A program made the translations under genes and the position numbers. Positions 855 through 18,535 of a stretch of DNA of 38,446 nucleotides are shown one piece after another. Origin of the DNA: Acidaminococcaceae bacterium (GTDB lineage Bacteria; Bacillota; Negativicutes; Acidaminococcales; Acidaminococcaceae); NCBI GenBank assembly GCA_029004715.1, contig JAQVYX010000008.1:1-38446 (forward strand), in the 5' to 3' direction. The stretch's first letter is position 1, and each line of letters opens with the position of its first letter. The notes under the pieces were generated by a model. It did no database searches. It was not told the origin of the DNA and saw only the letters and a list, made by a program, of their open reading frames with translations.

Positions 855-1724
855 CTATTTCTTAGGACATTCTTTTAGAATATAGTTTCTAAAAGCTCCT
901 TGTAATTTTTTTGTCACTGCTCCCACTTGTTTATCAGCCACAAATTTACGGCCTATTTTCGTAACAGGAATAATTTCATAGTGTGGCCCGACTAAAAAAG
1001 CTTCTTCTGCCCCTAAGGCAAAATCCACTGTAAAAGCTTTTTCTACTACCTGCATATCCACATCCGATGCTAGACGTTCTTTCACCAAACGAGCTGCTAT
1101 TCTATTGTGAATTAAATTATTGGCAGGATGTGTCCAAATAATATCGTCTTTAATAAGAAATAGATTACCCTCTACTGCTTCAGTAATTTTTTCGTTACGC
1201 ACAAAAATAGTCTCAAAAGCTTTTCCTACAATAGCCTTTTGCTTAGCCAAAACTTCAGGCAATCTATTCAAGGAGTTAATATCACAACGCTGCCAGCGTT
1301 CATCAATTTCCGTCATAACGTTAACACCTTTTTCTTGTTGTTCAGTTAAATTTACTCTGTCATTTTCTGCTACGAACATAGTTAACTGCGGCACCATCAT
1401 TTCAGGAAACCCTAAACTGCCCTTTCCCTCACCACGAGTAAGTTGCGTATAGATTTCACCATTTTCTAGACCGCTGGCGTTTATTAATTGCTCGTGTAAT
1501 TCCACTATTTCCTCTACTGTATAAATGCCTGGAATTTTAATTGCCATAGCGGATTTAAACAAAGCTTCTATGTGAGGAAGCAAAGCAAAACAACGTCCAT
1601 TGTATACAGGGACTACTTCAAAGACGCCGTCACCAAATTGTTGTCCTCTATCACCAAAAGCAAATGTTGCATTGTCCCTGTCCATTATTTCACCATTAAC
1701 CAAAACTACATTTTTTATCATCAT
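855..1724 (-). CDS. Class IV aminotransferase (D-amino-acid transaminase-like), catalytic Lys missing
   Basis: The 289-residue protein aligns along its length with D-amino-acid aminotransferases and branched-chain aminotransferases (fold type IV, PLP). The N-terminal GDRGQQFGDGVFEV block, the central CDI-x-SLN block and the C-terminal ITE and THPANN blocks are all in the right order. In Bacillus D-amino-acid transaminases the central block reads CDIKSLN and that Lys forms the Schiff base with PLP. Here residue 150 is Asn (codon AAC, complement of 1275-1277). The substrate-binding RGxxxRxH-type stretch is also altered (RGEGKGSLGF, residues 97-106). If these changes are real the protein cannot be a normal transaminase. 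Two adjacent ATGs (1724, 1721) follow a GGAGG, and the second has the better spacing. It is cotranscribed with the S-component-like gene. Confidence 0.8.
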   Translation of the reverse strand: MMIKNVVLVNGEIMDRDNATFAFGDRGQQFGDGVFEVVPVYNGRCFALLPHIEALFKSAMAIKIPGIYTVEEIVELHEQLINASGLENGEIYTQLTRGEGKGSLGFPEMMVPQLTMFVAENDRVNLTEQQEKGVNVMTEIDERWQRCDINSLNRLPEVLAKQKAIVGKAFETIFVRNEKITEAVEGNLFLIKDDIIWTHPANNLIHNRIAARLVKERLASDVDMQVVEKAFTVDFALGAEEAFLVGPHYEIIPVTKIGRKFVADKQVGAVTKKLQGAFRNYILKECPKK

Positions 1725-1810
1725 TCATCCTCCAAAATACTAACAAGGGCTTTTCAATACCTCTTCCCTAAGAGTATAATATATATATGTTTTATTATAT
1801 ATTAAAAACC

Positions 1811-13675: not shown

Positions 13676-14953
13676 TTATTTTAACACGCCAGGAAGCCAT
13701 GTAGCTATTCCTGGGAAGAAACACAACAATAAAATTTCTAAAACCATAACGCCCGCAAAAGGTATTACGCCTTTAACTATTTGGGTCATTTTACTGTCCG
13801 GACTAATTCCCTGCAATACAAACAAGTTCATGCCTACCGGAGGCGTAATCAATGCCAATTCTAGGTTAATCAACATAACTACATTAAACCAAATAGGATC
13901 AAACCCTAATTTTAGGATAATTGGATATAAAATTGGCAAAGTTATAAAAATAATAGAAATCGATTCTAAAATACACCCCAAAAAAAGAAGCAGAATATTA
14001 ATAGCTATAAACACAACCCATCTACTAGCCTGCATACCGGCTACCAACTCTGTCACAGCCTGTGGTACATTTAAAATTGTCAAAACAAATCCAAATAAAG
14101 TAGCGCCTATCATAATAGCAAAAATCATAGAAGTAGTCTTAATTGTATCATTAAGTATGACCGGAAGATCAGAGAGTTTTAAGGATTTGTAAACAACAAA
14201 GGTAATAAACAAGCTAAACACTGTTCCCACGGCAGCCGCTTCTGTAGGGGTGAAAGCTCCTGTGTAAATTCCGCCTACTACCAACAACGGTAGCAGCAAC
14301 CCCCAAAAGCTCTTTTTTAGCGCCGTTAAACGTTCTGCAATAGGCGCTTTGGATTCCAAGGGGAGATTGCGACAACGATAAACCATAACGGCAATGAACA
14401 TAACTGTTAGCATTACACCAGGTACAACCCCGGACATGAATAATTTCCCTACAGATTGATCTGTAATAGCTCCATACAAAATCATAGGAATAGAAGGTGG
14501 TATAAGTATCCCCAAAGTACCTCCGGCAGCTACAGCCCCTAAAACAATAGAGCGTTCATAGCCGCGTTTAAGCATTTCCGGAATAGCTATAGCGCCAATA
14601 GTTACGGCGCAGGCCACAGAAGACCCTGTAATGGCAGCAAAAACAGCGCAGGCAGCAACAGTTGCAATACCTAGCCCTCCTGGATAATGTCGCAACCATT
14701 TATTGCCCAATTCAAATAAATCGTTACCAACTTTTCCTGTTAAAAGAATTTGGCTCATTAGTATGTATAAAGGCACTGCCGTTAAAACAAAATCATCCAG
14801 AGCTTTATAGGCTAAAATGGGGATTTGCGTTAAAGATGAAGCCCCTCCCATAAAAACATACATGCCGAAAACTCCTGCAACACCCAAAGAAAATGCTACC
14901 GGTAACCCTATAGCAATAAATACCAATAAAAGAGCTGTAAAAAGAATTATCAC
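13676..14953 (-). CDS. dctM: TRAP transporter large permease subunit DctM
   Basis: 425 residues, the standard DctM length, with about 12 membrane segments. It is the Na+-coupled transport subunit of a tripartite ATP-independent periplasmic transporter. Family blocks include GLPVAFSLGVAG near the start, AAITGSSVACAVTIGAIAIPEM near residue 110, GGTLGILIPPSIPMILYGAITDQSVGKLF (about 147-175) and the late TPPVGMNLFVLQG. The start is the GTG at 14953. AAGGAGG (14963-14969) is 9 nt upstream, while the in-frame TTG at 14962 abuts that site. The start follows the dctQ stop by 1 nt, so translation is coupled. The substrate is not readable from the sequence. Confidence 0.93.
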   Translation of the reverse strand: MIILFTALLLVFIAIGLPVAFSLGVAGVFGMYVFMGGASSLTQIPILAYKALDDFVLTAVPLYILMSQILLTGKVGNDLFELGNKWLRHYPGGLGIATVAACAVFAAITGSSVACAVTIGAIAIPEMLKRGYERSIVLGAVAAGGTLGILIPPSIPMILYGAITDQSVGKLFMSGVVPGVMLTVMFIAVMVYRCRNLPLESKAPIAERLTALKKSFWGLLLPLLVVGGIYTGAFTPTEAAAVGTVFSLFITFVVYKSLKLSDLPVILNDTIKTTSMIFAIMIGATLFGFVLTILNVPQAVTELVAGMQASRWVVFIAINILLLFLGCILESISIIFITLPILYPIILKLGFDPIWFNVVMLINLELALITPPVGMNLFVLQGISPDSKMTQIVKGVIPFAGVMVLEILLLCFFPGIATWLPGVLK

Positions 14954-14954
14954 C

Positions 14955-15479
14955 TTAGGCAACCTCCTTAGAAAATTCTCCGGAAGTGAGTTTGGTAATA
15001 TCTACAAATATCGTACCTAAAAAATGTAAAAACAACATCCCGATGCCGATAGGCATAGACAACTGAGGAATCCATAAAGGCACCCTTAAAGTATCCGGTG
15101 AGCGTCTATCTATTTCATATGACAAACTAGCCATATTAACTGCTTCCACAAAAAAAACTAAACAAAATATAGCGCCTATGGTTGATGCTAGTATTTCCAA
15201 AAAACAATAATTTTTAGGAGACAATTTCGACGTGAATATATCAACTTTAATATGTTTTCCCGCTCCATAAGTGACCGGCATACCCAAAAATCCTGCTACC
15301 AGTACACAATACACTGATAGTTCTATAGACCACTCTGTCGGAGCATTAAACATTCCACGCATAACAACTTCATAAAAAATCATGAGCGCCGGCACGAACA
15401 AAATTACACCAGCAAAAACGCCCATAACATTTGTAACCTTTTTTAAAATAGTTTCATAAAAAAATATTGCTTTTTTCAC
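14955..15479 (-). CDS. dctQ: TRAP transporter small permease subunit DctQ
   Basis: 174 residues with four predicted membrane segments, the small membrane subunit that pairs with DctM. Family features are the N-terminal helix with VFAGVILFVPALMIFYEVVMR, the AGKHIKVDIF stretch after the second segment and the late SLSYEIDRRSPDTLRVPLWIPQL loop. The start is GTG at 15479, with GGGAG about 10 nt upstream. It lies 61 nt after dctP, and that gap holds a GC-rich hairpin (15509-15530). The last codons of dctQ contain the dctM ribosome site. Confidence 0.9.
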   Translation of the reverse strand: MKKAIFFYETILKKVTNVMGVFAGVILFVPALMIFYEVVMRGMFNAPTEWSIELSVYCVLVAGFLGMPVTYGAGKHIKVDIFTSKLSPKNYCFLEILASTIGAIFCLVFFVEAVNMASLSYEIDRRSPDTLRVPLWIPQLSMPIGIGMLFLHFLGTIFVDITKLTSGEFSKEVA

Positions 15480-15540: not shown

Positions 15541-16578
15541 TTATTTTTTTGTGCAAATATCAATTAGTTCTTGACCTAATTTGCCGGAGTGTTTAACAAA
15601 AGTGTCCCAGCAAGGTTTTGTTGCCTGTTGCCATTGACCGATTTCATTAGCAGGAACAACATAAACCTCCATGCCTTTTGCTTTTAATTTCTCCAACGCA
15701 ACAGTATCTTCAGTTTGAGCATTTTTGCGCAATTCATCGCGTACTTCTTTAGCCGCCTCGGTAATAATTTTTTGTTGTGCAGGGCTCAATTTTTGGAAAG
15801 ATTTTTCATTCATGGCCAAAATAAATTCCGGATAAGCATGATTAGTAATAGTTAAATATTTAGCAACTTCGTATATTTTGCGATCAAACATAGCTGTTGT
15901 TCCTGAAGTTAAACCGTCAACAACTCCACGTTGTATAGCCATATATACTTCTCCGCTGCCCATAGTAACAGGAGCTGCTCCCAAAGCTTTTATAGTATCA
16001 GAAGGCATTTCTCCGTACCCGCGCAACTTCAAGCCTGCAAAATCCTCCGGTTTTGTTATTGCATGTTTAGCATTAGCAAATTGTACAAATCCATAATCAG
16101 CCCAAATTAAAGAACGAACGCCTTTTTTTAACAATTCTGCCCCTAGTTTAGCACCCAAGCCACCATCAATAGCTTTATCCACCTGAGCATATGACGGGAA
16201 CAAGAACGGAACATCAAATACTTCCATAGCAGGTATAACACTAGACCATCGTCCCACTGTATTTAGCCCCATATCAATACCACCGGCCATGATGGCATCA
16301 TTCATACTCTTATCATTGTAAAGTTGCCCGGAAGGATAAATTGTTATGGTAATATTTCCCATAGATTTTTCTTGAACTTTCTTGGCAAAGGTTGCTGCCC
16401 CCTTCGCTAAAGGATGGGATGCAGGTAAATTATGTGCTAATTTAAGCGTCACCTTGTCGCTTTCTTTTGCACTAGTGCTCTTAGAACTATTACCACCACC
16501 ACAGCCCAAAGTAATTGCCATGGCACAAACCATTGTGACAGCTATCATTTTTTTTAACATCTTTGACCCCATTGTCAT
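15541..16578 (-). CDS. dctP: TRAP transporter substrate-binding lipoprotein DctP
   Basis: 345 residues; extracytoplasmic solute receptor that delivers an organic or amino acid to DctQM. The signal peptide ends in an ITLGC lipobox with Cys26 followed by GGG, so it is probably lipid-anchored. The mature part has LKLAHNLPASHPLAKGA, YPSGQLYNDKSMNDAIMAGGIDMG and the signature GLKLRGYGEM stretch whose Arg clamps the substrate carboxylate in this family. The start is the ATG at 16578 behind AAGGGGTG. The longer frame to 16674 runs back through the T-box terminator and is an artefact. Expression is controlled by the T-box leader 16610-16854. C4-dicarboxylates are the classical substrate, but the T-box suggests an amino acid or its 2-oxo acid. 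Confidence 0.92.
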   Translation of the reverse strand: MTMGSKMLKKMIAVTMVCAMAITLGCGGGNSSKSTSAKESDKVTLKLAHNLPASHPLAKGAATFAKKVQEKSMGNITITIYPSGQLYNDKSMNDAIMAGGIDMGLNTVGRWSSVIPAMEVFDVPFLFPSYAQVDKAIDGGLGAKLGAELLKKGVRSLIWADYGFVQFANAKHAITKPEDFAGLKLRGYGEMPSDTIKALGAAPVTMGSGEVYMAIQRGVVDGLTSGTTAMFDRKIYEVAKYLTITNHAYPEFILAMNEKSFQKLSPAQQKIITEAAKEVRDELRKNAQTEDTVALEKLKAKGMEVYVVPANEIGQWQQATKPCWDTFVKHSGKLGQELIDICTKK

Positions 16579-16609: not shown

Positions 16610-16854
16610 AAAAAAGCCCCTGCCGACTTTAGTCGACAGGGGCGTATGTACGCGGTACCACCCTGTTTTATCACTTTTGTGTTAAAATACAGCCTTAACG
16701 CGGCCTTGCGCTCATTCTTACTGCTATTTCAGAATAAGAGCTCCCAGGTGAGAGATGATTTTAGGCACTATCGATTTTCACCAAACATCGACTCTCTTTA
16801 AATGCCGCCAAATTATCATTCCTGTTCAAAACTTCTGCTTATTTTCACTAATGT
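16610..16854 (-). promoter_or_regulatory. T-box riboswitch (tRNA-sensing leader) upstream of the TRAP operon
   Basis: The minus strand contains the T-box core AGGGTGGTACCGCG (16651-16664), whose TGGT (16657-16660) can pair with a tRNA ACCA 3' end, so the sensed tRNA should have discriminator A. It is followed by a terminator of 11-13 bp with a GCCCC...GGGGC base (16616-16643) and T6. Upstream is Stem I with AAAGAGAG, the terminal TTTGGTGAAAA loop and the CACCTGGGAG block (16741-16750). The likely specifier is ATC (16757-16759), followed by A, which would read Ile. AAA (Lys) and CTC (Leu) nearby are weaker alternatives. Uncharged tRNA should favour the antiterminator and turn on dctPQM. Confidence 0.92.
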
Positions 16855-16860
16855 GTAACT

Positions 16861-16889
16861 AGTATAGCAATGCTACAAACTATTGTCAA
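16861..16889 (-). promoter_or_regulatory. Promoter of the T-box/TRAP operon
   Basis: On the minus strand TTGACA (16884-16889) and TATACT (16861-16866) are separated by 17 nt. It lies 39 bp after the stop of the MBL-fold gene, and its start site near 16854 begins the T-box leader. Confidence 0.82.
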
Positions 16890-16927: not shown

Positions 16928-18535
16928 TTAAACAGATTTCATTACATCATCAATATACTGCTTAATTTTTTCCAATTTTTTCTTCATTTCAGCGACTTTA
17001 GTATTATCACTAGCAGCTACCTGTTCTAATTTGTTTTTGTATAACAAGTAATCTTTTTCCATATGACGCATATAATCACGCAACTCATCAATTTCAGGAA
17101 CACCCGCAACAGCAGAGGAAACCTCCATGTGCCAATCTGTCCCATCAATAACAACGCTATCACCGTAATTAGGGATAACCGTAGCTGTTCCCAAGGTATT
17201 ACGTAAATTTTCAGCAAAAGCCGAAGCCGCATCATACTCACCATGTACAACAAAAAACGCTGTCGGTTTTTGCTTCATCTGCTTAAACATCGCCATCATT
17301 TGGTCTTTATCAGCATGAGCGGAGAATCCAGCCATATTATAAATCTTAGCTTTAACGGCAATTTCCTCCCCCATAATCTTCACGCGTTTTGCCCCTTCAA
17401 CTAAGCGACGCCCCATACTGCCCTCTGCTTGGTAACCGGCAAAAATTACACTGCTATCGCTGCGCCATAAATTATGTTTTAAATGATGAAGTATACGACC
17501 GGCATCGGCCATGCCACTAGCAGAAATGATAATCATCGGGCTAGGCATTTCGTTAATGGCCCGTGATTCTTCCGGTGTCTGCGTATACCGTACATTAGGC
17601 ATATCGATTAATTTACCACCTTGCGCATCATAGATTGATTGTGCTTCTTCATCATATTCATCCGGATTAAGAAACATTACTTGGGTAGCCTTAATAGCCA
17701 TGGGACTATCAATCATAATCGGCACACGCTGAATCTTTTTGGCATCCATAAGTTTTTGGAAATAATATAACATTGTTTGAGTACGACCTACGGCAAAAGC
17801 AGGAATGATAACATTACCACCTTTGGCCAAAGCCTCTTGCATAATATCACACAGCTCTTGCTCGCGGTCGGCAACTTCATGAACTCTATCTCCATAAGTA
17901 GATTCCGTGATGATAAAATCTGCCCCCGACATATTATCAGGATCAGGCAAAATGGGCTGGTTGGGTTGTCCCAAGTCGCCGGTAAAAATAATTTTGGTCT
18001 TCTTGCCATTTTCTTCCACAAAAATATTAACTATAGAACTACCCAAAATATGTCCTGCTATTTGAAAACGCACTTTAATTCCAGGAAATAATTCCACCTC
18101 TTCATTGTAATCATGCACAGTAAAATGTTTTAGTGCAATATAAGCATCATCTACAGTATACATAGGCTCTACAACACTTCTACCGGCACGTTTGCCCTTA
18201 CGATTAAGGAATTCTGCTTCCGACTCTTGAATATGCGCACTATCAGGCAACAATATATCACACAATTCTCTAGTTACTTTGGTACAATGCACTCTACCTG
18301 CAAAACCATGTTTTACCAGCTTGGGGAGTAAACCACTATGGTCAATATGAGCATGGCTGAGAACCACTGCGTCAATTTCTCCCGGGTTAAAAGCAAAATC
18401 TCGATAATTTAATGATCTTATAATCTTAGGACCTTGAAACATACCGCAATCAAGCAAAATCTTTTTACCATTAACTTCTAACATGTGACAAGAACCGGTT
18501 ACCGTTCTGTCCGCTCCCAAAAATGTTATTTTCAT
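16928..18535 (-). CDS. MBL-fold / beta-CASP metallo-ribonuclease
   Basis: 535 residues. The metallo-beta-lactamase core has HAHIDH (residues 61-66, zinc ligands), a later GHILGSS His and the FTGDLG Asp. The beta-CASP insert (about residues 210-390) includes STYGD, PAFAVGRTQTMLYYF and SPMAIKAT. The final IISASGMADAGRILHHL and FSAHAD blocks complete the site. Members of this CPSF-like group are RNA endo- or exonucleases. It lacks the KH domains of the archaeal form and carries a Lys-rich coiled C-terminus. Its promoter region contains a long inverted repeat (18566-18618). A role in RNA processing or decay is known for the family; the target is unknown. Confidence 0.9.
   Translation of the reverse strand: MKITFLGADRTVTGSCHMLEVNGKKILLDCGMFQGPKIIRSLNYRDFAFNPGEIDAVVLSHAHIDHSGLLPKLVKHGFAGRVHCTKVTRELCDILLPDSAHIQESEAEFLNRKGKRAGRSVVEPMYTVDDAYIALKHFTVHDYNEEVELFPGIKVRFQIAGHILGSSIVNIFVEENGKKTKIIFTGDLGQPNQPILPDPDNMSGADFIITESTYGDRVHEVADREQELCDIMQEALAKGGNVIIPAFAVGRTQTMLYYFQKLMDAKKIQRVPIMIDSPMAIKATQVMFLNPDEYDEEAQSIYDAQGGKLIDMPNVRYTQTPEESRAINEMPSPMIIISASGMADAGRILHHLKHNLWRSDSSVIFAGYQAEGSMGRRLVEGAKRVKIMGEEIAVKAKIYNMAGFSAHADKDQMMAMFKQMKQKPTAFFVVHGEYDAASAFAENLRNTLGTATVIPNYGDSVVIDGTDWHMEVSSAVAGVPEIDELRDYMRHMEKDYLLYKNKLEQVAASDNTKVAEMKKKLEKIKQYIDDVMKSV

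Follow-up and report, generated by a model that had tools for sequence, protein, structure and literature searches.

A leucine T-box riboswitch predicted to control a TRAP transporter operon in Acidaminococcaceae

Introduction

Which amino acid does the leader RNA of a TRAP transporter operon respond to, and what does this say about the substrate that the transporter imports? This question is raised by a window of 38,446 nucleotides (the whole stretch of DNA analyzed here) from an Acidaminococcaceae bacterium (GCA_029004715.1, contig JAQVYX010000008.1). Its minus strand carries three adjacent genes that form a complete DctP-type TRAP subunit set according to Pfam: dctP, encoding the solute-binding protein (15541..16578; PF03480, 4.9e-82; TIGR00787 above cut-off), dctQ, encoding the small permease subunit (14955..15479; PF04290, 2.7e-29), and dctM, encoding the large permease subunit (13676..14953; PF06808, 1.6e-108; TIGR00786 above cut-off), for which we chose by eye the likely GTG start at 14953. 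The substrates of TRAP receptors are hard to assign from sequence, and a conserved leucine T-box narrows the choice to leucine-related carboxylates.

Results

Judged by its sequence, the dctP leader is a canonical transcription-terminating T-box riboswitch. The initial annotation had placed a T-box before dctP and proposed checking it with the Rfam covariance model RF00230; we found that this model matches 16838-16635 on the minus strand (feature 16635..16838) with 103.5 bits (cmscan, E 5.6e-22), which is over the gathering score of 93, that the match is full-length (model positions 1-219 of 219), and that dctPQM follows directly downstream. When the organism's own genome was scanned, which gave 13 T-box matches, this leader reached an E-value of 6.8e-24. 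The promoter, Stem I, T-box and T6 terminator that had been listed before are all present, each on the minus strand. A sigma-70-type promoter was read from the sequence at 16861..16889 (TTGACA at 16889-16884, a 17-nt spacer and TATACT at 16866-16861), and the same hexamers or a close variant recur upstream of most orthologous leaders. Stem I, identified from the cmscan alignment and the sequence, spans 16745..16824, carries AGAGAG and UUUGGUGAAAA elements and has a base helix of CAGG (16824-16821) and CCUG (16748-16745). The T-box sequence AGGGTGGTACCGCG (16651..16664), whose UGGU bulge would pair with ACCA, is invariant in the leader alignment. The antiterminator (CAGGG...CCCTG, 16637..16665, from the cmscan alignment) and the intrinsic terminator (16610..16643; arms GCCCCTGTCGACT...AGTCGGCAGGGGC at 16643-16616, then T6 at 16615-16610) have the segment GCCCCTG (16643-16637) in common and are thus mutually exclusive, and the dctP ATG at 16578 lies 31 nt beyond the T-run. 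The terminator was recognized from sequence, folding and compensatory changes: the segment extending from the T-box through the terminator has a folding energy of -28.7 kcal/mol (z -5.1 versus shuffles), and across 18 leaders 19 of the 35 consensus pairs keep pairing through double-sided changes in at least one sequence, with such changes seen in the upper Stem I helix and the terminator.

To read the specifier codon, we calibrated its register on T-boxes of the same genome (valS, ileS, thrS, pheS, serA, trpE, leuA and ilv; targets named from their translations, leuA also by Pfam). For all of these except valS, the specifier is the triplet separated by one base, usually A, from the 3' strand of the base helix (e.g. 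ileS AUC-A-CUCUA, thrS ACC-A-CCUUC, trpE UGG-A-CC and leuA CUC-A-UCCCC); the valS specifier GUC sits one base farther from the helix. Applied to the dctP leader, this rule yields CUC-A-CCUG and hence the leucine codon CUC at 16752-16750 (feature 16750..16752, minus strand), a register confirmed by the base helix CAGG/CCUG. Comparing the leaders of orthologous dctP genes, as had been suggested, gave the same answer: among the 27 aligned leaders, which are the loci with a recognizable T-box motif and, as several come from close relatives, not 27 independent cases, the codon at the specifier position is CUC in 24 leaders and CUG in three, so that a leucine codon is found in 27 of 27, while the neighboring frames give no codon reading for a single amino acid. 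The synonymous change between CUC and CUG fits selection for leucine. Leucine had been listed before only as an alternative, and both the register and the alignment now support it. The previously preferred reading, an AUC specifier with a TRAP system for isoleucine or its 2-oxo acid, could draw on two ATC triplets (16759-16757 and 16756-16754) within the specifier region and on the UGGU bulge, which would also fit tRNA-Ile with its discriminator A, but it is very improbable. AUC is found here four or seven bases 5' of CUC and out of register with CAGG/CCUG, whereas in the ileS and ilv T-boxes of this genome it immediately precedes A and the helix. It is also not conserved across the 27 leaders, whose alignment contradicts the isoleucine reading. 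The lysine alternative (AAA) and the other frames of the specifier loop were likewise rejected by register and alignment.

The cognate tRNA-Leu(GAG) is encoded on contig C19 of this genome, as detected by ARAGORN and by the Rfam tRNA scan; a simple pattern search for it matched only another tRNA-Leu. The 3' end of tRNA-Leu(GAG) reads CCGC-A-CCA, and its discriminator A thus matches the UGGU bulge, in line with the earlier argument that the bulge needs a tRNA of this kind. We propose that the anticodon of uncharged tRNA-Leu(GAG) would pair with CUC and its ACCA end with UGGU, which would stabilize the antiterminator and let RNA polymerase proceed into dctPQM, and that the terminator would form when leucine is ample. 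Control of the TRAP operon by a leucine T-box is, on the evidence of register, conservation and tRNA, very likely. A gene for tRNA-Leu(CAA) is found at 179-263 of the window (minus strand), near its edge and apart from the T-box locus.

Other genes of this genome share this predicted control. The leucine pathway genes are present, and leuA is preceded by a leucine T-box of its own. Contig C69 ends, past serA, with a second leucine T-box (L003), and contig C39 starts within ilvN and continues with ilvC, leuC, leuD, leuB and ilvB (named from translations, leuB also by TIGR00169); in Phascolarctobacterium faecium, the same order as in the L003 region leads to ilvN. From this synteny we infer that C69 and C39 join and that the L003 T-box precedes ilvN-ilvC-leuCDB-ilvB. 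In relatives, CUC T-boxes are also found before leuS, leuA, ilvN and leuC. The TRAP operon therefore appears, by its predicted specifier, to belong to a leucine regulon together with leuA and ilvN-ilvC-leuCDB-ilvB (and leuS in relatives). A separate T-box (L002, G000:C12:30209-32002, T-box at 1501-1773, minus strand) has one Stem I followed by two tandem T-box/terminator units; its specifier, read by eye, is probably UUC (Phe), and it precedes a gene of the sodium:solute symporter family (PF00474). A near-identical partial copy of this T-box is present at a contig end (L012).

We then considered how widely the T-box and the transporter occur together. DctP orthologues with 51 to 83 percent identity are encoded by 36 of 59 family genomes, this one included, and further orthologues are found in Phascolarctobacterium faecium, Acidaminococcus intestini, Succiniclasticum ruminis, Sporomusa ovata, Megamonas and a Peptococcaceae bacterium; the Rfam scan recognized a T-box at most of the orthologous loci scanned. 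In a tree of 45 DctP proteins built by a quick method (a few loci were dropped for length or as duplicates, including L070, which has no T-box), the close orthologues form one clade with a support of 99 that comprises Acidaminococcaceae, some Sporomusa, Megamonas and Peptococcaceae. Usable upstream DNA is available for 38 rows of this clade, and 34 of these have a T-box; an extra gene lies between it and dctP in 14 of them and is absent from this position in 20. No T-box was recognized in the remaining four (L047, L064, L065 and L072), although for L064 the upstream DNA covers no more than about 400 nt and a T-box farther away could be missed; these four rows suggest that leucine control is not essential to the transporter. 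On the tree, four changes are required to explain the distribution of the T-box and six that of the extra gene, and in our reading both are probably old and were lost sporadically. Regulation of the TRAP genes by this T-box is predicted from sequence, and a degenerate or fortuitous element without regulatory effect on them is most improbable, given that the T-box match is full-length and exceeds the gathering score, that 19 of the 35 pairs show compensatory changes and that a T-box is present at 34 of 38 orthologous loci.

Other neighbors of the operon also recur. A beta-CASP nuclease with a metallo-beta-lactamase fold is encoded at 16928-18535 of the window (minus strand); among NCBIfam models it scores best against that of type VII CRISPR Cas14, with 438 bits, well under the cut-off of 800, so that by this test it is not a member of that model. 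A nuclease of this type is also found upstream of the TRAP operon at two other loci (L045 and L089). A family S58 peptidase gene (PF03576) lies 3' of dctM in Sporomusa ovata (L057, 5938-6894), and a similar gene lies 3' of dctM at L068.

The extra gene that many relatives carry between T-box and dctP, within the same T-box operon, encodes a protein of about 287 residues of the isocitrate lyase/PEP mutase superfamily with the segment EDQVWPKRCGHM. By sequence, its closest PDB entry is the petal death protein (1zlp, 259 bits), compared to 182 bits for methylisocitrate lyase and 174 bits for 2,3-dimethylmalate lyase. The petal death protein cleaves 2-alkylmalates; our literature search for details of its substrates found none. 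No match to the lyase gene was detected in this genome or in its nearest relative, which makes any argument from the lyase to the substrate an indirect one, and no clear clue emerged from the genes around unlinked lyase homologues (L090-L096).

The receptor itself points to a carboxylate. In DctP-type TRAP receptors, a conserved arginine binds the substrate carboxylate (PMC4646407), and Arg186 of this DctP, within the motif GLKLR, is invariant among 21 sequences. Arg186 would fit this rule, assuming from the motif that it is equivalent to Arg-147 of SiaP. The AlphaFold model of DctP (pLDDT 84.9) has 4p47 as its best PDB match (Z 35.9), and a structure search with the model returned many DctP-type receptors with Z of about 31 to 36; these PDB neighbors bind varied acids, and the search gave no pointer to the ligand.

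Discussion

The initial annotation argued that a T-box-controlled TRAP system should supply an amino acid or its precursor, and the predicted leucine specifier upholds this argument. The retention of the leucine T-box across the family and in distant relatives suggests that the transporter probably imports a leucine-related organic acid, and a branched 2-hydroxy- or 2-oxo-carboxylate of the leucine pathway is suggested by the combination of a leucine regulon, a receptor for carboxylates and, in sister operons, a C-C lyase that may act on alkylmalates. Our leading, still tentative, reading is that the TRAP system imports a carboxylate convertible to leucine, with a branched 2-oxo acid or a branched 2-alkylmalate (2-isopropylmalate, for example) as the most likely kind. 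Uncharged tRNA-Leu would then switch on carboxylate uptake that feeds leucine synthesis. We also consider it possible, if doubtful, that the leucine T-box, the petal-death-protein-like lyase and dctPQM constitute an undescribed route by which branched 2-alkylmalates (2-isopropylmalate, 2-isobutylmalate) are scavenged from the environment for leucine synthesis, with this genome holding the transporter without the lyase.

Alternatively, under the same regulation, the transporter might import leucine itself, as a zwitterion, and scavenge it during leucine starvation. In favor of this, amino acid transporters are frequent targets of T-boxes (PMC2494555), DctP receptors are known to bind zwitterionic amino acids (PMC4646407), and the specifier is CUC or CUG. 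Against this, the lyase in the operon of many relatives has no obvious use with leucine, and leuB is present in all 25 TRAP-bearing genomes of at least 90% completeness, which argues that the TRAP system is no substitute for synthesis, an argument weakened by the presence of leuB in 36 of 38 such genomes overall. Across all 59 genomes, the TRAP system is kept in two of the seven without leuB versus 34 of the 52 with leuB, an association that is not significant (Fisher p 0.098, and 0.11 in the better genomes) among genomes that are related and partly incomplete. We regard import of leucine itself as unlikely. Less likely still is an ordinary C4-dicarboxylate or sugar acid as the substrate, with the same regulation and a T-box that was co-opted as a general starvation switch. 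This would agree with Pfam and NCBIfam, which name DctP by family only, and with the varied acids bound by its PDB neighbors, but the leucine specifier survives synonymous change across a deep clade, which points to a function linked to leucine. With less certainty than for the T-box, we thus favor a leucine-convertible carboxylate over an ordinary C4-dicarboxylate. The T-box offers a ready assay in cultured species such as Phascolarctobacterium faecium, Acidaminococcus intestini, Succiniclasticum ruminis and Sporomusa ovata, and if the substrate is a pathway intermediate, this would indicate that gut and rumen communities exchange precursors of leucine.

How does this locus compare with known systems? 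The transporter families under T-box control given in a table legend of PMC2494555 are ABC, APC, DAACS, LIVCS, MFS, NHAC and NSS, and the text of that paper mentions no TRAP transporter. Our literature search, with most subscription journals and the T-box databases outside its coverage, found no paper pairing 'T-box' with 'TRAP transporter'. The RNA is, in its predicted form, an ordinary T-box, and its TRAP target may be new. Like the transporter proposed here, the TRAP system of a 2006 study, as cited in PMC5812351, supplies amino acid precursors. Going by that description, its receptor type is not among the recognized matches of this DctP. We know of no T-box control of that system. For the predicted lyase of the sister operons, the petal death protein 1zlp is the closest solved relative by sequence and is alike in the EDQVWPK(R/K)CGHM segment; the former is bacterial and absent from this genome, whereas the latter is a plant enzyme. 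The system of Marta et al. (1996), as far as its title in the reference list of PMC2494555 conveys, shares with the dctP leader a T-box with a CUC specifier, a predicted response to leucine and a transcription antitermination architecture, and differs in that its targets are biosynthetic genes rather than a TRAP transporter. Leucine T-boxes are also found before amino acid permeases (PMC2494555), namely yvbW of the APC family and, in the B. cereus group, a gene of the NSS family: unlike dctPQM, these targets are not TRAP systems, but their T-boxes likewise precede a transporter and were used to predict its substrate.
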